Shown here in pieces: positions 1,744-14,868 of a stretch of DNA of 28,416 nucleotides. The DNA comes from a virus. The DNA lies in the IMG/VR virus record IMGVR_UViG_3300022690_000232, positions 1-28,416 of that record, one strand, 5' to 3'. The first letter of the stretch is position 1; each line of letters opens with the position of its first letter. A program made the position numbers and the translations under genes. Under the pieces are notes generated by a model. It saw nothing but the letters and a program-made list of their open reading frames with translations, did not search any database and had not been told where the DNA came from.

Positions 1744-3717
1744 ATGGCATACAAATCACTAGCAGGCATAATACCTAATTATGATGAGCTGCAAGGCTTT
1801 TTCTTAAAGTTCTACGAGCCAAACACCACAACACCTATCGCCATGGCAACAGATGTGACGGGCGGAACTTTATTGGCAAAAGCTGAGTTAGATATTAACG
1901 GATTCCCAGCAACCACTGGTAACGCTTTATTTATTCCGTTCATGAATGAAGCTTATGACGCTTATTTATTCCCAACAGAAGCAGAGGCAGACGCTAACGA
2001 TACTATTAACGCTTTTCGTGTGGCTCAAAATATAGACCCGCTTGAAAATGAGTTAGTTAATAGCTTTGAAAAATTTGGAGCGGTTGGTGATGGCGTAACA
2101 GATGACACTACAGCTATTTTAAACGCTGTTGCTGCGGAAGGTCACGCGGTTGGTACGATAGGTCAGACTTACGCGATAACTGCCGGCTCTTTAGATTATT
2201 CAACAGTCAGCGGCGATGGTAATTTTATTATAGGCACAAGTGTTTTTCCAGTCGGCGATATAATCACGGGTATTTCTTTGAATATTCCTGAAGCTTTTGG
2301 CTGGAAAGAAATATTTAACGGGTATTTAAGAACAAGAAGAGTATTTAACTTAACAGACATAGTCGTTGCTGCTGGTGTTCATGATGTTGATATGACATCA
2401 GGCCCCAATATAACTTATGAACATGTAGATGGTAATAATATAACTGTGACGGGTGCTAGTGCTGCTACTTGTACTGTTAAGTTTGACTTTACTGGCAGGT
2501 CTAACGAAAGAATTTACGGTATAGGCTTAAACGGAACTTATTCTATAAACTTGGTAAATGGTATAACTTTTGACGGTGATAATTATTCAGGTCATGCGCA
2601 AGGCTCTCCACTGTCAGGTGATGGTTTAGCCAACGATCCAATAGGTTGTAAGGTGCAAAACCAAGGTGCTATTGAATTTGGCTCAGATGTTATTTTTCAG
2701 TTCTTTGCCAGGAATGGCATTTTAACTAACGAAGGCGGTTATTGTTTAGCAGTAGGCGTTAACGTAAATAACTGTGGCTCAGATGCTTTCGTTGCATCTC
2801 TAGGGGCTGCATTATTAGCTGAGAATAGCTCCTGTGATACTATTTTTGGAGATGGTTATTTCTCTAATCGCGGCGGTGAATTGTTTTGCAATGGCGCGGT
2901 AATAACAAATATTTTAACTCGATTTGGTGGCTCTGCCGGCGATGCTATCGTATCAGTTGAAGGTGGTAAAATTTATTGTGATAACGCGCAGATAGATACC
3001 GTAGCTGATGAGGGCATCTTTGTTGGCACTGGTAGTATGCTAACCGGTAATAGTATCGATATAGGAAGTTCAGGAACAGGTTGCGGTGGCGTGTCGGTAG
3101 TTGTTGAGCGCGGCGGCGTAATGATTGCTAATAATCTTACGGTTGAAAACGGACTATCTGACGGTGTTCGAGTGATCGAAGGTGGTGAGCTATTCTCAAT
3201 AGGACTTACTGTTAACACAGTTACAGGTATTGGTTTATTCGTTGACCAAGGCGGAAAAGCTGTTATACCTGATGCAACAATCGGCGGCTCAGGAATTGGC
3301 ACCGGCGGGGTCGGAGTGCACTGTGTGGGCGGAGAGATTAACGGTGTTAGATTAGATGTATCCCATAGTACAGGGGATAACATTATAATAGAACAATGTG
3401 GCTCACTAGTTTCCAACGGATTAACTACTACTTTTGCTGGTGGCCATGGATTACTAGTAAGCTCAGCTAGTTTAGCTAGGTGTAGCACATCTACATTCAG
3501 TGATAATACTTTAGACGGCATAAACTGTGATAATGGTCGCATATCTGCTTCATCTGCTGCTGAGATAGATAGAAACGGCGGCTGGGGTATTATATCAAGG
3601 CGTTCAGGTATAGTTGATTCAGGTGGCACTACAATCGGTGGCTCTAACGGAAGCGGGACAGCAAGTCCGACAGCAGATGTTACAACGGGGATACTTGATA
3701 GCTTTATTTATGTTTAA
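1744..3717 (+). CDS. Tailspike protein, beta-helix with pectate-lyase-like entry motif
   Basis: 657 residues. Residues 1-105 look like a virion-attachment domain of the sort found at the N-terminus of podovirus tailspikes (IIPNYDELQGFFLKFYEPN near the start). Residues 111-122 carry FGAVGDGVTDDT, the hallmark at the start of pectate-lyase-superfamily right-handed beta-helices. From about 200 to 650 the sequence is a run of short G/N/V/I-rich strands typical of a parallel beta-helix. The protein should bind and probably cleave host surface polysaccharide during adsorption; no catalytic residues can be assigned by eye. The ATG follows the preceding stop directly, with AGGAG about 8 bases upstream, so the two genes are co-translated. 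A hairpin terminator follows. Confidence 0.85.
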   Translation: MAYKSLAGIIPNYDELQGFFLKFYEPNTTTPIAMATDVTGGTLLAKAELDINGFPATTGNALFIPFMNEAYDAYLFPTEAEADANDTINAFRVAQNIDPLENELVNSFEKFGAVGDGVTDDTTAILNAVAAEGHAVGTIGQTYAITAGSLDYSTVSGDGNFIIGTSVFPVGDIITGISLNIPEAFGWKEIFNGYLRTRRVFNLTDIVVAAGVHDVDMTSGPNITYEHVDGNNITVTGASAATCTVKFDFTGRSNERIYGIGLNGTYSINLVNGITFDGDNYSGHAQGSPLSGDGLANDPIGCKVQNQGAIEFGSDVIFQFFARNGILTNEGGYCLAVGVNVNNCGSDAFVASLGAALLAENSSCDTIFGDGYFSNRGGELFCNGAVITNILTRFGGSAGDAIVSVEGGKIYCDNAQIDTVADEGIFVGTGSMLTGNSIDIGSSGTGCGGVSVVVERGGVMIANNLTVENGLSDGVRVIEGGELFSIGLTVNTVTGIGLFVDQGGKAVIPDATIGGSGIGTGGVGVHCVGGEINGVRLDVSHSTGDNIIIEQCGSLVSNGLTTTFAGGHGLLVSSASLARCSTSTFSDNTLDGINCDNGRISASSAAEIDRNGGWGIISRRSGIVDSGGTTIGGSNGSGTASPTADVTTGILDSFIYV

Positions 3718-3899: not shown

Positions 3900-4202
3900 T
3901 TACTTTGAAAATACATACTTGTAACCGATAAAAGGATAAGTAACATTGTATTCTTTTTTGTTATTGAACGGCTTACCGACAAAGCATTGCGAGAGGTGTT
4001 TTACTCCATAACTCAACACCCCCGATAACACAGGCGCTTCAAGACCAAGCTCTACGCCGCAAGATATACGATAATCAGTGCTCCAAGCTTTTTCACCGCC
4101 GAATTTAAGATTTGTTTCATTTAGCTTATACCCCATTTCAAACTTGGTATAGGGCACTGATGAACAACCGAATAAAAATAAAGCTATTAGTATATATTTC
4201 AC
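3900..4202 (-). CDS. Small predicted lipoprotein
   Basis: 100 residues with a classic lipoprotein signal: MKY, a short apolar stretch (ILIALFLF), then GC at 12-13 followed by SS, so cleavage and lipidation at Cys13 are expected. The mature part has alternating aromatic/polar stretches and ends in a tyrosine- and phenylalanine-rich tail, which could be a small beta structure. The GTG start (4202) overlaps the endolysin stop by GTGA, so translation is coupled to the endolysin. Its place after the endolysin would suit an outer-membrane spanin, but it lacks the proline-rich character of Rz1 and has no inner-membrane partner beside it. A superinfection-exclusion lipoprotein is an equal possibility. 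No family recognised. Confidence 0.7.
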   Translation of the reverse strand: MKYILIALFLFGCSSVPYTKFEMGYKLNETNLKFGGEKAWSTDYRISCGVELGLEAPVLSGVLSYGVKHLSQCFVGKPFNNKKEYNVTYPFIGYKYVFSK

Positions 4203-4690
4203 AGAACCACCTCTAATATTTTGTTGTTGATAATTGCTTGTTTAAATTTAGGCCAAGTACTAGCACCTGCTGGAGTGTTATAAATCCTCTTGTAGTAATC
4301 ATAAACAGCACGAAGGTTGTTATGGTCTGGTAGTGCGGCAGTATCCATTGAATACTTTAATCTAGCCATTGCGCAAGCGTACATAGGTGCAACTATCAAG
4401 GCCTCACCCCATGCCCTATCGTGAGTTACAGGCATGGTTAATTCAATTAACTCCTTAAATTCTTCACCCTGCATAGCATCACAGTGATTGTATATATCCT
4501 CCTCTGTATCAGGCTCCATCTGCCAAATACCCAAAGCGGGCCCACCAATTTGCTTAATGTAATACCCACAATTACTTTCTATTGCTGCGGTACATAATAA
4601 TAAAAAGTTAGCGTTTTTACTTTCGTAATTACCTCTCATGTATTCATGTGTTGGTTTAATGATGTGATCGTAAAGCTGTTGTGCGTCCAT
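4199..4690 (-). CDS. Endolysin, lysozyme/transglycosylase-like
   Basis: 163 residues, no signal peptide. The segment LLCTAAIESNCGYYIKQIGG places a probable catalytic glutamate at Glu38 (IES), followed by PALGIWQMEP. Both resemble the lysozyme-like/lytic transglycosylase fold seen in a family of short phage lysins. The C-terminal part (YYKRIYNTPAGASTWPKF) is also typical of that family. It should cut cell-wall glycan strands at the end of infection and needs a holin for export. AAGGAT and AAAGGT lie just upstream of the ATG at 4690. It overlaps the lipoprotein gene by GTGA. A diverged copy of its 3' end survives at 3753-3848. Confidence 0.75.
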   Translation of the reverse strand: MDAQQLYDHIIKPTHEYMRGNYESKNANFLLLCTAAIESNCGYYIKQIGGPALGIWQMEPDTEEDIYNHCDAMQGEEFKELIELTMPVTHDRAWGEALIVAPMYACAMARLKYSMDTAALPDHNNLRAVYDYYKRIYNTPAGASTWPKFKQAIINNKILEVVL

Positions 4691-8566: not shown

Positions 8567-9313
8567 CTATAAAGAATTAATTCTATTTGTTGCCACATCA
8601 AAATAACCCTTGTCCAACTCTATCCCAATAAACTTTCGGTTTAGGTTTTTTGCTGCAACCCCTGTGGTACCGCTTCCCATTGTAAAATCAAGCACTGTAT
8701 CTCTTTCGTTAGTGTAAGTTTTAATTAAGTACTCCATTAACGCGACTGGCTTTTGAGTCGGATGTAAATTATTAAATCTTTTATCACTACTGAACCTCTG
8801 AATACTTCTCGGGTACCGCTCAGTACTATCATAATTTGGCAAAGATATATCCTTTCCGTAGCACTCAGATACAACAACTTTCTTTTTTGCTGTTTTTCTT
8901 TTATGACCCTTTGTTTTTTGTGGGTTGTATGTTGGTAGCTTATTATAAAAAACCAAAACACTCTCATGACTTCTTAGTGGCATTTTTTTAGCGTTGAAAA
9001 AGCCGGTACCTGCAGGCTTATCCCAAACCCAATCATATTTGAACATCGGTAAATTGCTACAAGCTAACACACTGGTAAAAGGCTGTGCTGCAGTTAGCAA
9101 TACAACTCCGTTAGGTTTTAATATTCTTTTTAATTGTTCCCACATTAAATCAAGATCAATTACAGAATCCCATTTACACATGGTTGTTCCGTAAGGAATA
9201 TCAGCAAGGATACAATCTGCACTTTTGCTATCTATCTCATTCATGCGCTGCAGGCAATCTCCATGCATCAACCAAGAGCTAAAGCGGTTACTAAAAACAC
9301 TATTCCCCCTCAT
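8567..9313 (-). CDS. DNA methyltransferase, beta-class N6-adenine/N4-cytosine
   Basis: 248 residues from ATG 9313. HGDCLQRM at 17-24, the catalytic motif IV as DIPYG (38-42, a DPPY variant), HPTQKP before the C-terminal part, and the S-adenosylmethionine motif DFTMGSGTTGV near 209-219. Motif IV before motif I defines the beta class. The target base cannot be read from this. No restriction gene is next to it, so it is an orphan enzyme that may shield phage DNA from host nucleases or affect gene control. A longer in-frame start at 9337 exists, but AGGAGAG sits about 6 bases before 9313, just past the previous gene's TAG. Confidence 0.9.
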   Translation of the reverse strand: MRGNSVFSNRFSSWLMHGDCLQRMNEIDSKSADCILADIPYGTTMCKWDSVIDLDLMWEQLKRILKPNGVVLLTAAQPFTSVLACSNLPMFKYDWVWDKPAGTGFFNAKKMPLRSHESVLVFYNKLPTYNPQKTKGHKRKTAKKKVVVSECYGKDISLPNYDSTERYPRSIQRFSSDKRFNNLHPTQKPVALMEYLIKTYTNERDTVLDFTMGSGTTGVAAKNLNRKFIGIELDKGYFDVATNRINSL

Positions 9314-9323
9314 CTTCACTCTC

Positions 9324-9788
9324 CTATAAAACATCATCTAGGTTATTTGCCCATGATGTATCATCTAAATTACTATCATGCTCAACCTGTTTACTCGAGC
9401 TGCTATTGTTTTTCAGTGGGAACAGTCCAGTGTATTGATTGCTGATAGAGTTAAATACTATTTGCGCCTGCTCCTCGTAATTACCAAGAGTAGCCAGTTC
9501 TATCTTTTTAAGATCTGTTACATACGCTTTAATTTTCGCTTTCTTTCTGTAAGCAATCCATTCACCCCAAGCCTTAACGTTTAACCCATCAACATCAACC
9601 GTAACTAATTCAGTTTTAGGTTTTCGTTTAACCTTCTGCTTAGTCCGTAAATGAGTTATTAAGTCATCCATATACATTGACCTACTATAGCGGGAGTTAG
9701 TCTTTTTACGTTGCTCTACTTGCTCCTCTATATAGGTATGGTTCTCTCTACACATTGAAAAACTAAGTGGTTTTCTTGCTGTACTCAT
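9324..9788 (-). CDS. Putative RHH / DnaT-like DNA-binding protein
   Basis: 154 residues. The N-terminal 50 (KPLSFSMCRENHTYIEEQVE to MYMDDLITHL) resemble a ribbon-helix-helix or similar small DNA-binding unit. Residues about 68-125 (VDGLNVKAWGEWIAYRKKAK, then LGNYEEQAQIVFNSI, then GLFPLK) match the C-terminal domain of phage replication and DnaT-like primosome proteins, which bind single-stranded DNA and help load helicase. The tail is acidic and serine-rich. As first gene behind a strong leftward promoter it could be an early replication-initiation or control protein. Family assignment is by eye. Confidence 0.5.
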   Translation of the reverse strand: MSTARKPLSFSMCRENHTYIEEQVEQRKKTNSRYSRSMYMDDLITHLRTKQKVKRKPKTELVTVDVDGLNVKAWGEWIAYRKKAKIKAYVTDLKKIELATLGNYEEQAQIVFNSISNQYTGLFPLKNNSSSSKQVEHDSNLDDTSWANNLDDVL

Positions 9789-9915
9789 ATTTGTTAAGTC
9801 CTTGTTTAGTTATCTGATGCAAATAATATAATTATTATATTGCTTTGTCAAATATTAATTGCTATTGTTAAATCTCAATAGGATGTGTACTTAAAACAAC
9901 TGAGGGTTAACAAAT
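9789..9915. repeat. 9-base inverted repeat framing a divergent control region
   Basis: ATTTGTTAA (9789-9797) and its reverse complement TTAACAAAT (9907-9915) lie at the two edges of the region. The left copy ends exactly at the leftward start codon; the right copy reads into ATGTAA, a start followed at once by a stop. Confidence 0.45.
9823..9851 (-). promoter_or_regulatory. Strong leftward sigma70-type promoter
   Basis: On the minus strand TTGACA (9851-9846), a 17-base spacer and TATTAT (9828-9823). It lies 35 bases before the ATG at 9788. Surrounding DNA is very AT-rich. The same TTTGTCAAA core could serve a rightward -35, but no good rightward -10 follows. Confidence 0.75.
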
Positions 9916-9944
9916 GTAATAACGCAAATTAAAGACTTGCCATA

Positions 9945-9966
9945 TAAACCGCTTAATTGCGGTTTA
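9945..9966. promoter_or_regulatory. 8-bp hairpin in the leader of the rightward early unit
   Basis: TAAACCGC (9945-9952) pairs with GCGGTTTA (9959-9966) around TTAATT. Neither side has a proper T tract, so an attenuator, RNA-processing or protein-binding hairpin is as likely as a terminator. Confidence 0.4.
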
Positions 9967-9998
9967 GTGGGTATCAACAACGCAACGGAATAAACGGA

Positions 9999-10217
9999 AT
10001 GAAATCAATAAGAGCTATTAACATCAAATTCACCGAAGCTGATAAAAATGCTGCACCATGGACTGATGAGCGATTAGGTAAAGGTGTATGCGTACCTCTA
10101 GCCGGTGATTGGTCTGCTGATGCATGTGCTAAGTTTGTTAAGGAAAATCACCCCGATGCAATTAGCTATGAACTTAATTATAACTACGAACAAAACACAA
10201 CTTGTGATAACGAATAA
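9999..10217 (+). CDS. Small hypothetical protein (72 aa)
   Basis: Begins MKSIRAINIKFTEADKNAA. The centre reads VPLAGDWSADACAKFVKENH, a strand-helix pattern. The leader AACGGAATAAACGGA before the ATG resembles that of the gene at 14665. Function unknown; probably early. Confidence 0.6.
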   Translation: MKSIRAINIKFTEADKNAAPWTDERLGKGVCVPLAGDWSADACAKFVKENHPDAISYELNYNYEQNTTCDNE

Positions 10218-10233
10218 TCAAAGGAGAATAAAA

Positions 10234-10479
10234 ATGAAATACCCAATAAACCTAAAGCTAGCTTATATATCTGATGAAAATTGCTTACCTATCGGTACAG
10301 TTGATTCAACACATTATATAAATAATTTTGACGATCTAAGTGTTTTAGCTAGCTATATCAATGTATTTTCTGAACATGAATGGGATAGCGAAGAATTACT
10401 TCTTACTATATCGTTGAGTAATCACAACTTTAAAACAAGAACAGAGCAAGATCCTTGCCTGCATTTGTACGTTATTTAA
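10234..10479 (+). CDS. Hypothetical protein (81 aa)
   Basis: 81 residues from the ATG at 10234, which has AAGGAG well placed; the frame opens earlier but no better start is seen. Starts MKYPINLKLAYISDENCLPI, acidic, alpha/beta. No domain recognised. Confidence 0.6.
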   Translation: MKYPINLKLAYISDENCLPIGTVDSTHYINNFDDLSVLASYINVFSEHEWDSEELLLTISLSNHNFKTRTEQDPCLHLYVI

Positions 10480-10504
10480 TTCAACAACGAGAGAGTAAAT
10501 AAAG

Positions 10505-10678
10505 ATGAAAATACCAACGATTGAATGTTCCAGGGTTAGAGCTTGTAAATGGAAAGGAAGACCAGAAGACCTTGTCAGCGTTAAAAACAAGAAAGATTCA
10601 TTTAAGCACGGGTTAGTTATTAGCGATTTGATTTGCCCTAAATGCGGATGTAAAACAACTTACGATATAGAGCAATAA
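10505..10678 (+). CDS. 57-residue zinc-ribbon-like protein
   Basis: Starts MKIPTIECSRVRACKWKG and ends with LICPKCGCKTTYD: paired cysteines at C8/C14 and C44-x2-C47-x-C49 can bind zinc. GAGAG lies before the ATG. A small nucleic-acid-binding or accessory protein is likely; no family recognised. Confidence 0.6.
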   Translation: MKIPTIECSRVRACKWKGRPEDLVSVKNKKDSFKHGLVISDLICPKCGCKTTYDIEQ

Positions 10679-10702
10679 ACAATTAACTAGGAGATAGAAA
10701 GA

Positions 10703-10984
10703 ATGCCAATATATAAAAACTACAAAATAGCAAAACTAAGAGAACTTGCTAATCATATCGGTCGTGAGGGAGTGTCAATCGAAGCTATTAAAGCTGTAAA
10801 GGATTTTGATGGCTCATATAAAGGTGTTATGGAATTAGCTGGTAAATTAACCGTTATAGCTGATATGAGTACATTTGATGATTATTGGCAGGAGCAAGTA
10901 AATAGAGGTGTTTATAAAATGACAGATAGGTGCTTGTCTATTATTGATAATCTGGATTCATGGGATAAAGGAGTAAGCAACTAA
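10703..10984 (+). CDS. Hypothetical protein (93 aa)
   Basis: 93 residues, helical, starting MPIYKNYKIAKLRELANHIG. AGGAGA lies before the ATG and its TAA overlaps the next ATG. No domain recognised. Confidence 0.6.
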   Translation: MPIYKNYKIAKLRELANHIGREGVSIEAIKAVKDFDGSYKGVMELAGKLTVIADMSTFDDYWQEQVNRGVYKMTDRCLSIIDNLDSWDKGVSN

Positions 10985-11157
10985 TGAGTATTGAATCAAT
11001 AGCATTCAAGCAAGGAAGAAAAGCGGCTAGCTTAGGTGTCGCTCTAGAAAGTAGCGGATTAGTTAACCTCAACCCTGACAGTGATCGTTACTGGGAATTT
11101 ATAGATGGCTACGACTCTTACAAGGCAGGTAAACTCACTAATAAGGACAGTAAATAA
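10984..11157 (+). CDS. 57-residue hypothetical protein
   Basis: MSIESIAFKQGRKAASLGVA, then YWEFIDGYDSYKAGK. The G-R-K-A-A and F-x-x-G-Y-x-x-Y patterns occur in short phage proteins of unknown role. It is linked at both ends by TAATG overlaps, so it is translated with its neighbours. Confidence 0.6.
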   Translation: MSIESIAFKQGRKAASLGVALESSGLVNLNPDSDRYWEFIDGYDSYKAGKLTNKDSK

Positions 11158-11423
11158 TGAGTGAATTAAAGGTTTGTCCGTTTTGTGGGTCAAATGATAT
11201 TGGCGGTGCTGGCGGTATTATTAGTTGCTATGAATGTGGTGCTGAGACTAGCAAACACCCAGATACAGAGCTTGCAGGGTTATCATGGAATAATAGGGTT
11301 AGATTCTCAACCGTTGAAGGTATGCAGCTCGTGAGTGAGGAGGCTATTAGTTACTTGCATGATCATTGGCCATCAGCATATAAAGAGTTTTATGCGAGAC
11401 TTGATAATAAGGAAGATAAATAA
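11157..11423 (+). CDS. Lar-like restriction-alleviation zinc-ribbon protein
   Basis: 88 residues. VCPFCGSNDI, then ISCYECGAET and a late WNNR: this is the C-P-x-C-G / C-x-x-C-G-A / W-N-x-R signature of the Lar family. Lar of the Rac prophage dampens host type I restriction by modulating the modification enzyme. The C-terminal half is unlike Lar, so the name is family-level only. With the methyltransferase it forms a candidate anti-restriction set. Confidence 0.65.
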   Translation: MSELKVCPFCGSNDIGGAGGIISCYECGAETSKHPDTELAGLSWNNRVRFSTVEGMQLVSEEAISYLHDHWPSAYKEFYARLDNKEDK

Positions 11424-11424
11424 T

Positions 11425-11604
11425 ATGGCACCTTTAGCGAATGAAGATCCTTCAGCGACTGGGTATGTAAAACCAAAGGAAAGAGAGGTTTTTTATATTT
11501 GTGCTGGTAAATATAGGGTCGTGCGCACTGTATTAAAGGCAGAACAAGAACCATCTTACCCAAAGGTCAGAAAAGATAAGCGCAAGAACTTTAATTTAAG
11601 TTAA
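11425..11604 (+). CDS. Hypothetical basic protein (59 aa)
   Basis: Starts MAPLANEDPSATGYVKPKER and ends KVRKDKRKNFNLS; the basic tail suggests RNA or DNA contact. GGAAG lies before the ATG and the start follows the preceding stop by one base. It is the last gene before a 536-base gap. Confidence 0.55.
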   Translation: MAPLANEDPSATGYVKPKEREVFYICAGKYRVVRTVLKAEQEPSYPKVRKDKRKNFNLS

Positions 11605-12140
11605 CATTGAAAAAGAAGTGAATAAATAATATAATAGTAAAGTAAATCGCAGTTTAGTAGCTGCTTAGAAAGTAAATTTTGGTAAAGGGTATTTTGAACT
11701 GTGATCTTTGATGGGTTTTTCCACCAAGATTTCACCCTCTACTAAACAGAGGTTACGGTTCCAAGTACCCTTTTTTGTGTTTGTTATTAATGTCGAAAGC
11801 CTACTTGGTTTCCTACGAGATAGATATTTAATAGCAGGCACAACCCCTTTCAAAGCCTCTTACCTACTGCCGATATTCTCGGTAACTATCGTAAAATAAT
11901 CCGCACCTGTAAAAATTAGTTTTATACATATAAACAGACTCCATGACGGTCTAAACAGCGTAAAAAGAAACATAGTTCTGCATAACTGAATATTTATATT
12001 TTAAATGTAGAGAGGATGAGAATAGCAACTCAATAAAATAGTTTGCTGATATTGTTTATTGTATTCGTGTAGATATTAGATTTATTAAATAGAGGTTTCT
12101 TTTAATAGTCATATAGATTTTATTGTCTAAAGGTTTATTT
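11605..12140. other. 536-base stretch without a convincing gene
   Basis: Everything around it is packed with genes. Short open frames exist on both strands (63 codons plus, 62 minus) but lack ribosome sites, start at TTG codons and share the same bases as a long hairpin at 11687-11770. Small hairpins also occur at 11649-11664 (GCAG/CTGC) and 11872-11884 (CCGA/TCGG). A possible promoter for the next gene is TTGTTT, 16 bases, TATTAG near 12052-12079. Confidence 0.55.
11687..11776 (+). ncRNA. Candidate structured small RNA ending in a T6 tract
   Basis: 11687-11702 (GGGTATTTTGAACTGT) pairs with 11755-11770 over 16 positions with one mismatch and two G-U pairs. Inside are two further stems: ATCTT 11704-11708 with AAGAT 11726-11730, and CCTCT 11735-11739 with AGAGG 11748-11752. 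TTTTTT follows at once (11771-11776). A three-stem RNA closed by a terminator is the simplest reading; a very long terminator hairpin is the alternative. It is not a tRNA, since no T-arm precedes the closing strand. Confidence 0.45.
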
Positions 12141-12365
12141 ATGAGCAAATCAAGTAATTTAAAGAGTTGGAATATTAAGTTAAACGATAAAAACTTTAGC
12201 TTAAAAGGCAAGATTAAAAAGATAGAGAAAAAACTATTATGGATTGATGATATATCTTTAATATGGAAGCTTAAGGATAAGGCTAAAGAGCTTAAACACA
12301 AGATCCTTATCAATGAGCAGCAAGTAAGATTTAACCTAATGACGATACTGTCAGGAAGTAATTAA
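12141..12365 (+). CDS. Basic helical hypothetical protein (74 aa)
   Basis: 74 residues, rich in K, L and I: MSKSSNLKSWNIKLNDKNFS, then KGKIKKIEKKLLW and KLKDKAKELKHK. The heptad-like spacing suggests a coiled coil. AAAGG is 7 bases before the ATG. It follows the gene-free stretch and is the first gene of the second half of the early unit. Function unknown. Confidence 0.55.
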   Translation: MSKSSNLKSWNIKLNDKNFSLKGKIKKIEKKLLWIDDISLIWKLKDKAKELKHKILINEQQVRFNLMTILSGSN

Positions 12366-12385
12366 ATTAACAATGGAGAGTAATA

Positions 12386-12646
12386 ATGAGTAATGTAACT
12401 GAGATGTTTAAAAAGAATGGTTATGAGGTAGAGTACATATTCAGCGGCGATAAAATAACTGGGATTACTCATCCTGACTGGCCTTACGCTATCGTAAGAA
12501 ATGGAGCGCAAAGAGCTTTAGTTTGCAAAGAAACAGATGAGCCATTTGGTAAATTAATGAAAGACGATTTTAATACGTTACTAATGTGTTGGTTGCTAAT
12601 TGATGATCCTGAATTGATTGATGCAGCAGCTAAAGATAGTAATTAA
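12386..12646 (+). CDS. Hypothetical protein (86 aa)
   Basis: 86 residues starting MSNVTEMFKKNGYEVEYIFS; an alpha/beta pattern with a W-P-Y segment and an acidic C-terminus. GGAGAG lies before the ATG. No domain recognised. Confidence 0.6.
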   Translation: MSNVTEMFKKNGYEVEYIFSGDKITGITHPDWPYAIVRNGAQRALVCKETDEPFGKLMKDDFNTLLMCWLLIDDPELIDAAAKDSN

Positions 12647-12667
12647 TCAACAACAAGGTATATGAAG

Positions 12668-12844
12668 ATGGAAGGATTTTTCACATGCCCGTTTTATTTT
12701 GAGGGCGCTAAGTATTATGATGAAGATTGTAATCTATACACAAACGAGCTACCTGATGGGTATAGCGTTATTGACGGGCATATAATGGTAGAAGGTACTG
12801 AGTCAGACGAGATAAGATTCGTTAATGACAACGATAAAGACTAA
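12668..12844 (+). CDS. Acidic hypothetical protein (58 aa)
   Basis: Starts MEGFFTCPFYFEGAKYYDED, acidic throughout. ATG 12668 is 9 bases from AAGG and is preferred over the in-frame ATG 12662, which is only 3 bases from it. Function unknown. Confidence 0.6.
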   Translation: MEGFFTCPFYFEGAKYYDEDCNLYTNELPDGYSVIDGHIMVEGTESDEIRFVNDNDKD

Positions 12845-12872
12845 CTCTATTAACAACAAGGGAGAAGATAAG

Positions 12873-13091
12873 ATGAAAAACGTTAAATGGTTTAATACAG
12901 AAAAAGGTGAATTCCCTGATATTGATCTTGGCATGGAGTATGTTGACGTATGGGTATATCAAGAAGGGGTTGTTCAACACGGGCAGTATGAAAACCCAGG
13001 AATGAATGAAAGTTATTTTCAGTTAGAACATGGTGAATGCATAGTTAACTCCATGTGGACTGAATATATAAAACCTGATGCGCCTGGTTAA
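12873..13091 (+). CDS. Hypothetical protein (72 aa)
   Basis: 72 residues from ATG 12873, with GGGAGAAG just upstream. Starts MKNVKWFNTEKGEFPDIDLG, followed by VDVWVYQEGVVQHGQYE; beta-rich and W/Y-rich. No domain recognised. Confidence 0.6.
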   Translation: MKNVKWFNTEKGEFPDIDLGMEYVDVWVYQEGVVQHGQYENPGMNESYFQLEHGECIVNSMWTEYIKPDAPG

Positions 13092-13118
13092 TTAAACATC
13101 AACAGTAAGGTAAACATA

Positions 13119-13247
13119 ATGAAATGGTTAATCAGGTTACTATGTAGGCATGAATATATATGCATGAATAACGGCTCAACCACAACAAAGTGTACTTGTA
13201 ATAAGTGTGGGAAAGTAGAGCATAGAGCGCTTAGTGATTATTATTAA
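13119..13247 (+). CDS. 42-residue zinc-finger-like protein
   Basis: MKWLIRLLCRHEYICM, then TKCTCNKCGKVEHR. C9-x-H11 early and C25-x-C27-x2-C30-G-K late make one zinc site, like short phage proteins with a C-x-H ... C-x-x-C-G-K layout. AAGG lies before the ATG. Role unknown. Confidence 0.6.
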   Translation: MKWLIRLLCRHEYICMNNGSTTTKCTCNKCGKVEHRALSDYY

Positions 13248-13270
13248 TAACATATATAAGGAGAGAAACA

Positions 13271-13435
13271 ATGAAAGTAACAAGCGATATGATCGAGGTG
13301 TTAATTGAAACGCTAAGTACATTACAAGATCAATTACTAAATGAATGCGAACCGGAAGATTTTGAGAGCAAGGATGATTTACTTAAGAGTACATTGAATA
13401 ATATTGAACATGATTTTAATGGATATGAATTTTAA
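13271..13435 (+). CDS. Acidic hypothetical protein (54 aa)
   Basis: MKVTSDMIEVLIETLSTLQD, then a D/E-rich helical tail; probably one helical hairpin. AAGGAGAG precedes the ATG. Last gene before the shared terminator at 13444. Confidence 0.6.
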   Translation: MKVTSDMIEVLIETLSTLQDQLLNECEPEDFESKDDLLKSTLNNIEHDFNGYEF

Positions 13436-13443
13436 ACACGCAA

Positions 13444-13470
13444 TAAAAAACCCTCTTAATCGAGGGTTTA
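13444..13470. terminator. Bidirectional terminator
   Basis: AAACCCTC (13448-13455) pairs with GAGGGTTT (13462-13469) around TTAATC. The minus strand continues as TTTTTTATTG, a strong terminator for the leftward unit; the plus strand has a shorter T tract. Confidence 0.8.
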
Positions 13471-13485
13471 TGTTATCTGCAACTG

Positions 13486-13716
13486 TTAACACTCAACACT
13501 ATCAAACAACTCTTCAAAGTATTCTGTATTACAAGGATACCTTAAACTAGCTAGTAACTTATCATCCTGGATGTTACGAACTGACTCATAAGCTTTACCA
13601 TTAGCACTAACAGCTTTAGTATCTTTAAAGTTTAACAAGTCAGTATCATTTTTAAAGTCAGATAATACTTTTCTATTATTAGCTATTTCATTTTTACCCA
13701 TTGCGTTAATACTCAT
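13486..13716 (-). CDS. Hypothetical protein (76 aa)
   Basis: 76 residues: MSINAMGKNEIANNRKVLSD, then KAVSANGKAYESVRNIQDDK, ending acidic. It overlaps the upstream gene by ATGA. No domain recognised; the last gene of the short leftward unit. Confidence 0.6.
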   Translation of the reverse strand: MSINAMGKNEIANNRKVLSDFKNDTDLLNFKDTKAVSANGKAYESVRNIQDDKLLASLRYPCNTEYFEELFDSVEC

Positions 13717-14303
13717 GATTTAACCTCTAGTAATTGAATGTCTTTAGGTTCAGTTTCGCCGCAAATTTTATTGCCGCCATACATATCTGTAAAGAACGAC
13801 TTTCTTGATTCACGGTAAAACCCTATCTTTTGCCCGTTAAGTTTAAATAGATAAGGTTTAAAGTCTATTAGCTCTATAGGTGATTCAGTTATCGTGCCAC
13901 AATCAATAGATACCTCTCTTATATCTGCGTACCATTCGCGCTTAACTCCGGTGTCAGACCTAAAGTTTTTACCGTCAATATCAACTAACCTGCCAAGCTC
14001 CCACGATGAATCAGCCTCATCTTTAAACTCATACAAACAGCCAGTGATATACATTTTATTATTTTGCTTGCATTTTACAGCTTGTGTATAGATGGGTTTA
14101 GATTCTGGCCTAGGTATTAGCTCGTTATCGTCAAAACTGGCTGCGAGCCACGGTGATTTTGGGTTGTTAAGGAATTCCAAGGTGGTTACAAACTGATATA
14201 AAATATCCTGATTTTTCATAACCCAACAAGAATTAAAGCTGTCATTTTCGGGCGAATAATGCGTTGCGCCTTCTGGCGCTTTACTCCAATCTATATCGTT
14301 CAT
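13713..14303 (-). CDS. Phage protein with WSKAPEGATHYSP motif
   Basis: 196 residues. The N-terminal WSKAPEGATHYSPE followed by a WVM segment is a motif I know from many phage early proteins of unknown role. The rest looks beta-rich, with C, W and Y spread evenly. CTGGAG lies before the ATG. It may be a DNA-mimic or host-takeover protein, but nothing here shows that. Confidence 0.65.
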   Translation of the reverse strand: MNDIDWSKAPEGATHYSPENDSFNSCWVMKNQDILYQFVTTLEFLNNPKSPWLAASFDDNELIPRPESKPIYTQAVKCKQNNKMYITGCLYEFKDEADSSWELGRLVDIDGKNFRSDTGVKREWYADIREVSIDCGTITESPIELIDFKPYLFKLNGQKIGFYRESRKSFFTDMYGGNKICGETEPKDIQLLEVKS

Positions 14304-14381
14304 CTATTTATACTCCAGCTCATTATCGTCACAACCAAGTAGCTGATTAAGTTTTTTAAGGAATGCCATGTAAGCTTTCAT
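14304..14381 (-). CDS. 25-residue peptide
   Basis: MKAYMAFLKKLNQLLGCDDN and five more residues ending EYK. AGGTGA precedes the ATG, which overlaps the previous TAA as TAATG, and the TAG directly precedes the next start codon. Likely translated; role unknown. Confidence 0.5.
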   Translation of the reverse strand: MKAYMAFLKKLNQLLGCDDNELEYK

Positions 14382-14539
14382 TATTTAGTCACCTTTTTAT
14401 ATTTAGCCATAATCATTTCGTTAACAACTGATTGCTTGTTAGCTGATAGGTTGCCGTTAGTTTTTTCATGCTTAACAATAATCTCTAGCATGTCGTTTAC
14501 ATTCTTTAATAATTTAATTTGCTTCAATGGTTCTTTCAT
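14381..14539 (-). CDS. Small helical protein, first gene of the leftward unit
   Basis: 52 residues: MKEPLKQIKLLKNVNDMLEI, then a basic C-terminus (MIMAKYKKVTK). It is directly behind the leftward promoter at 14571-14598. Small size, charge and position would suit a regulator, but no helix-turn-helix is clear. Confidence 0.55.
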   Translation of the reverse strand: MKEPLKQIKLLKNVNDMLEIIVKHEKTNGNLSANKQSVVNEMIMAKYKKVTK

Positions 14540-14570
14540 CTTATTGCCTTGTTATATTGTTGATGATTGA

Positions 14571-14598
14571 AGTTTACTTTATTTTGAATTAAAGTCAA
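14571..14598 (-). promoter_or_regulatory. Leftward promoter of a back-to-back pair
   Basis: Minus strand: TTGACT (14598-14593), 16-base spacer, TAAACT (14576-14571), 32 bases before the ATG at 14539. Confidence 0.6.
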
Positions 14599-14605
14599 AT
14601 TAAAG

Positions 14606-14633
14606 TTGACTACATCAATCACTGTGCTAAAGT
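14606..14633 (+). promoter_or_regulatory. Rightward promoter of a back-to-back pair
   Basis: TTGACT (14606-14611), 16-base spacer ending TGC, then TAAAGT (14628-14633), an extended -10 form. Its -35 lies 7 bases from the leftward -35, within two ATTAAAGT direct repeats, so polymerases cannot easily occupy both. It drives the recombination unit from 14665. Confidence 0.65.
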
Positions 14634-14664
14634 TACTACATCGAAACGAAACGGATTAAACGAA

Positions 14665-14868
14665 ATGATTACATGGTTAAGCACTGTTATAACTTCACCA
14701 GAAGCGGATAGGGAAATAATAGCTAGAAACCCACTTAAGCCAGTAGGTTTAAAATCAGCAGTTAAGCAATGTGTTGTTAAAAAGTTTCATCATTCATTTA
14801 GTGAGCAGCGAATAGTCGAAGATATGCTAGAAGATAACTTAACCTTATGGGCTTACTGTGATGTTTAA
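14665..14868 (+). CDS. Hypothetical protein (67 aa)
   Basis: 67 residues starting MITWLSTVITSPEADREIIA, helical. The leader ACGGATTAAACGAA echoes that of the gene at 9999. First gene of the recombination unit and overlaps the next gene. No domain recognised. Confidence 0.6.
   Translation: MITWLSTVITSPEADREIIARNPLKPVGLKSAVKQCVVKKFHHSFSEQRIVEDMLEDNLTLWAYCDV

Follow-up and report, generated by a model that had tools for sequence, protein, structure and literature searches.

Positions 11605-12140 of an uncultured phage genome read as a two-part RNA locus, in which a small RNA gene (A) is followed by a structured leader (B) of the gene for a 74-aa basic protein. The gene anatomy, conservation and helices of this locus are apparent from the aligned sequences of four phages, and as far as such an alignment can tell, the A/B locus constitutes a new family with four members. 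Taken whole, with the proposed actions of its parts, the explanation is tentative and falls only just short of probable. The original prediction had placed a phage small RNA in a gene-free stretch at this site. That stands for A, but it accounts for only half the content of the stretch, the promoter at 11607-11635 and the conserved block at 11917-12140 having been missed. The features of the locus are collected in Table 1.

Table 1. Predicted features of the A/B locus, in coordinates of the window
Feature	Position	Strand	Basis
Sigma70-type promoter of A, TTGAAA-17-TATAAT	11607-11635	+	11/12 match; immediately behind the preceding gene's stop codon
Predicted sRNA A, ~135 nt, from putative start to T6	11642-11777	+	Promoter, terminator, fold, homologous unit in L010
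5' hairpin 1 of A, GCAGUU-UAGU-AGCUGC	11649-11664	+	Minimum-energy and centroid fold; retained in L010
Likely pseudoknot strand 1, GUUUAGUAG	11652-11660	+	9 Watson-Crick pairs with 11739-11747
A-rich single-stranded linker of A	11665-11683	+	First half, UUAGAAAGUAA, invariant in L010
Long terminator hairpin with inner stem, bulge and T6 (11771-11776)	11684-11776	+	Sequence, fold, changes relative to L010
Likely pseudoknot strand 2, CUACUAAAC, mostly unpaired bulge of the terminator hairpin	11739-11747	+	Complementarity to the 5' loop
18-pair hairpin	11777-11841	+	z -3.55; L010 has a tRNA-His gene in this slot
Short hairpin ahead of block B, UGCCGA-UAUUC-UCGGUA	11868-11884	+	Present also in L010, with a similar one in L008
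Block B core, multibranched structured RNA P1-P5	11917-12069	+	Conservation, common fold, compensatory changes
3' part of leader B	12070-12140	+	Hairpin at ~12079-12110; AAAGG Shine-Dalgarno sequence (12129-12133) next to a small hairpin
74-aa basic two-helix protein, motif NEQQVRFNLM, after leader B	12141-12365	+	Homologs at the same place in L007, L010 and L008

The window, meaning the whole stretch of DNA that was analysed, is 28,416 bases long and comprises an entire IMG/VR virus record. Judged by its gene content (Erf, NinG, NinB, an O-like replication protein, large terminase, portal and scaffold proteins), it is a P22-like phage, with terminase relatives that all lie below 60% identity. 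An early gene at 10703-10984 reaches ~61% to its counterparts in Pseudoalteromonas phages, and on account of this shared gene the host may be a marine gammaproteobacterium. The stretch 11605-12140 is flanked on its left by a group of small rightward genes and on its right by the small gene at 12141. Two genes upstream of A, at 11157-11423, the window encodes a Lar-like restriction-alleviation protein; a Lar-like gene stands directly upstream of A in L010 as well. Elsewhere in the window, a second 11/12 promoter (TTGACA-17-TATTAT, 9823-9851, minus strand) points leftward just upstream of the O-like replication gene, and a 52-aa open reading frame with the intergenic piece upstream of it (14376-14650) is 73% identical at the DNA level in contig L016 and partly present in L010, possibly representing a control region of the phage.

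Three further uncultured phage contigs, L007, L008 and L010, carry A, B and the small protein gene in the same order as the window. L007 was found through the downstream small protein, and L008 and L010 through the B motif; since the contigs were retrieved by protein or by B, and A was used in neither search, the presence of A in all three is unselected. At the position of A, each has a sigma70-like promoter (11/12 in L010, 10/12 in L007 and a weak 9/12 in L008), a 5' hairpin and a long terminator hairpin with T6. The unit in L010 is homologous to that of the window, with 79% identity over aligned positions, and L007 and L008 form a second pair of matching architecture that is barely alignable to the first.

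The idea of a phage small RNA is borne out as the best supported reading of 11607-11777, given the near-consensus promoter, the 5' hairpin, the T6 terminator, the likeness of three phages and the compensatory changes, and there is little doubt that A is a real and independent sRNA gene. Within a non-coding stretch, the unit has its own promoter, a 5' hairpin, an A-rich linker and an intrinsic terminator made of a ~26-bp hairpin and T6. The promoter is the joint best on both strands of 9300-14700, and only 0.16% of the 60-nt segments of the window reach its score. On the minus strand, A folds more weakly than on the plus strand, and the hairpin is not accompanied by a T-run. The 63-codon (plus strand) and 62-codon (minus strand) open frames that overlap the hairpin had been dismissed as genes, rightly so, as they are unconserved and carry frameshifts and stops in L010.

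The inverted repeat from which the small RNA was originally proposed, with one mismatch and a following TTTTTT, lies exactly as placed: 11687-11702 (GGGTATTTTGAACTGT) and 11755-11770 (ACGGTTCCAAGTACCC) pair over 16 positions, with a single U.C mismatch when G.U is scored as a pair. Two internal stems had been drawn inside it, and these do exist as an alternative fold. In the minimum-energy form, the helix is longer, at ~26 pairs, and encloses a GGGU/ACCC stem and a 9-nt bulge (UCUACUAAA); L010 folds into this extended form too. Folding is stronger than in shuffled sequences, with -36.5 kcal/mol and z = -3.9 for 11670-11780 (0/200 dinucleotide shuffles as good), z -4.5 for 11640-11780 and z = -3.7 for the entire 536 nt (0/100 shuffles as good). 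Covarying changes among relatives, which the original prediction had looked to for confirmation, are present in the stem of A. Between the window and L010, the upper stem shows 3 both-sided and 2 one-sided changes with 0 broken pairs; between L007 and L008, the long stem shows 5 both-sided changes and no stem is lost, one A.C mismatch in L007 being a pair in L008. The structure of A is thus kept by compensatory changes, in small counts, as the covariation of both A and B comes from four related contigs only.

A could also be viewed as a terminated leader, its hairpin acting as a conditional terminator (an attenuator or antitermination target) for B and the genes from 12141, with the small RNA as a by-product. 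Phage lambda pR' yields such a terminated RNA, which counts in favor of this arrangement, as do the placement of A ahead of the 12141 gene, in the same orientation, in 4/4 phages and a scan of both strands of 9300-14700 that found no good promoter between A and B. It is improbable nonetheless: there is no antiterminator, since the pairing of any part of A or the leader with the terminator strands is no better than in shuffles; the stem runs to ~26 pairs; and A is dissimilar in sequence between the two phage pairs, whereas B is similar.

Within the small RNA, the bulge of the terminator hairpin and the loop of the 5' hairpin likely form a loop-bulge pseudoknot. While the window has 9 Watson-Crick pairs between the two, L010, L007 and L008 have 6, 7 and 6, respectively; the strands differ in these three relatives yet stay complementary, both varying together. 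Of 24 permutations, the pairing of each loop with its own bulge comes out best, and the combined Fisher p from shuffling is 2e-5 for a bulge region that was picked after inspection (post hoc). It is because of this post hoc choice, and because a broader duplex-energy test of the pseudoknot was not significant (combined p 0.076), that the pseudoknot is graded only as likely.

The interval between A and B contains further hairpins in the window (Table 1). The outer 7 pairs of the hairpin at 11777-11841 are acceptor-stem-like, and this element is perhaps a tRNA relic. In L010, a tRNA-His (GTG) gene lies between A and block B (L010:11306-11381, minus strand), and between the tRNA-His gene and block B there is a long hairpin of ~20 pairs around the tRNA T-arm-like GGUUCGAAAC (L010:11190-11300, minus strand). 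L008 has a second promoter-like site (TTGCAA-17-TAAACT) with a T6 terminator hairpin, arranged in tandem just upstream of its A (L008:1665-1760, plus strand).

Block B is most probably a functional structured RNA. Conservation of the DNA is much higher between the small hairpin at 11868 and the start codon at 12141 than in the gene behind it. Compared to the window, the B core is 96.7% identical in L007, 89.6% in L010 and 73.5% in L008, the 3' part (12070-12140) 85%, 81% and 76%, and the following gene 73.6%, 56.7% and 56.8%. The minimum-energy folds of the four sequences share one common multibranched structure, so that a conserved RNA structure directly precedes the same gene in each phage. 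Its pairs are 98.5% standard with 3 both-sided changes; sliding the partners lowers this to 31-45% and leaves no both-sided change. Support from the shuffle control (22/500) is only moderate, there being just four sequences. A model of B (R1) has a single match per contig in all four, and no other place in the loci compared gives a significant one. The very high DNA conservation, together with a single-sequence folding energy that is ordinary for its composition, would also suit a conserved DNA site for replication, recombination or packaging in place of an RNA leader. Such a site is quite improbable here, as stems P4 and P5 are altered on both strands in L008 with the pairs preserved, B ends in every relative at the Shine-Dalgarno sequence and start codon of the same gene, and tandem repeats are absent.

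As a leader, B would most likely control translation of the 74-aa basic protein, which perhaps binds its own leader beside the Shine-Dalgarno site in a form of autogenous control. Across the window and its relatives, this protein spans 74-78 aa with a pI of 10.1-10.6. AlphaFold2 predicts a two-helix hairpin for the product of 12141-12365 (pLDDT 93.5; helices 3-32 and 38-72). A structure search returned nothing below E 0.3, only generic helical hairpins, and the libraries searched hold no recognisable relatives of the protein.

Searches for known or additional members returned little. An Rfam search, as first proposed, did not name the stretch: in Rfam 15, nothing in the window or its relatives scored above the gathering threshold except the tRNA-His of L010. 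INPHARED phages and PLSDB gave no further members; neither did model R1 in 63 genomes of one order, and B DNA found only chance-level matches of 19-38 bases in 369 further genomes of the class. As the host may lie elsewhere, these empty searches of ~430 genomes are weak evidence. A match of L002 to an 18-base motif was rejected as chance, as were matches of L011-L013 to the B motif, around which neither B nor the small-protein gene is found. L003 and L006 have homologs of the gene at 12386-12646 but no significant B, and were not counted as members. L003 also holds three similar inverted-repeat intergenic pieces (3460-3560, 3955-4040 and 4425-4500, with ..GTGTTGTTAGTTT..) between small cassette-like genes, which recall integron attC sites.

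How A may act can be proposed in outline. Host sigma70 polymerase would start at ~11642 and stop at T6 (11776), releasing an RNA of ~135 nt in which the terminator-hairpin bulge would pair back to the 5' hairpin loop. This RNA would most likely act in trans on a host or phage factor, either as a structured decoy or as an Hfq-type regulator; the original suggestion of a regulator or decoy is, as a role, a guess. Since the sequence of the exposed loop varies freely among relatives and the pairing inside the RNA is kept, a protein-binding decoy is slightly favored over an antisense mode. That A is a decoy rather than an antisense RNA is plausible, with the balance somewhat against it.

A hairpin, an A-rich linker and a U-tailed terminator make up the architecture of Hfq-bound sRNAs. 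A fits this architecture, and it could regulate a host or phage mRNA as an Hfq-dependent antisense RNA, with a 5' seed, the A-rich linker as Hfq site and a U6-tailed terminator, features of which the linker and U6 are compatible with Hfq binding and no more. Hfq-bound phage sRNAs, namely VpdS and PreS, are known (PMC12197685). Such a role is doubtful, as the would-be seed in the 5' loop is unconserved among relatives and kept complementary inside A, and no strikingly long complementarity to A occurs elsewhere within the window. AgvB, VpdS and PreS are phage-encoded trans-acting sRNAs, of which AgvB decoys a host sRNA (PMC12197685). A resembles them as a phage-encoded small RNA thought to act in trans, but no sequence match was found, its function is a prediction, and the loop-bulge pairing and linked structured leader are not reported for them in the literature surveyed.

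The motif that follows hairpin 1 of A also brings to mind type I-F RNA anti-CRISPRs (Racrs), or solitary repeat units, in which case hairpin 1 and CUUAGAAA would mimic a CRISPR repeat and capture Cas6f. Like RacrIF1 (PMC10651486), A is a short promoter-driven phage RNA with a hairpin followed by CUUAGAAA and an anti-restriction-type gene nearby. The promoter lies right upstream, the nearby gene is Lar-like, and Racrs often adjoin anti-defence genes (PMC10651486). In the window and L010, CTGCTTAGAAA follows hairpin 1, and a closing C-G pair precedes CUUAGAAA, which is reminiscent of the 5' handle of type I-F crRNAs. This identity is very improbable, however. The handle is missing in L007 and L008, that is, in 2/4 phages, and the stem differs. 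The 28-nt site matches only 11-13 positions of I-F repeats, an identity no better than chance, whereas 36-72 other sites in the window match at least 15. The piece upstream of the cut would measure ~22 nt, compared to the 70-76 nt active in RacrIF1 (PMC10651486), and A carries a long terminator hairpin downstream of its hairpin where RacrIF1 has a long tail upstream. Rfam CRISPR families were not matched.

Other known phage RNAs offer partial parallels. The c4 antisense RNA (RF01695) and c4-a1b1 occur in P1/P7-type phages (PMC2864571) and, like A, c4 is a phage RNA just upstream of a same-strand gene; a c4 identity was rejected, as Rfam gave no RF01695 match and the complementarity of A to the leader is equalled or beaten by shuffles in 28-98% of cases. 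Phage PhiTE encodes ToxI-like RNA mimics of a type III antitoxin, ToxI-type RNAs consisting of tandem repeats of ~36 nt (PMC3475682). A pseudoknot in a phage RNA, a likely one in the case of A, is common to both, and ToxI acts by mimicry; a ToxI-like identity was likewise rejected, no tandem repeats being found in 11500-12200. A RalA-type antitoxin that pairs with the upstream Lar-like gene, an idea suggested by a weak RalR match, was also considered and set aside, as no such stretch is among the top complementarities of the window. Among leaders, the manA and wcaG motifs are structured 5' leaders in phages (PMC2864571). B resembles them in being a conserved, multibranched RNA that immediately precedes a phage gene, and differs in that the genes are others and B has no Rfam match.

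A bolder and unlikely proposal is that A represents a new class of counter-defence or host-takeover RNA. Here, a pseudoknotted sRNA would capture a host RNA-binding or RNA-cutting protein. Its inheritance would be coupled to that of a small basic RNA-binding protein and of a structured leader distinct from it, and the site would be a variable slot for RNAs, occupied by tRNA-His in one relative and by a second sRNA-like unit in another.

Taken together, RNAs of both kinds, sRNAs and structured leaders, are already known from phages. In the libraries searched, there is no match to the pair of A and B, to their predicted structures or to their link with a conserved small protein. Non-coding RNAs of phages are seldom annotated, and the A/B locus supplies a concrete example, a family whose ends are defined, which shows compensatory changes and to which a conserved protein is linked. 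In these uncultured phages there had been no known RNA family, and the transcript, its partner and its effect on the phage are directly testable.
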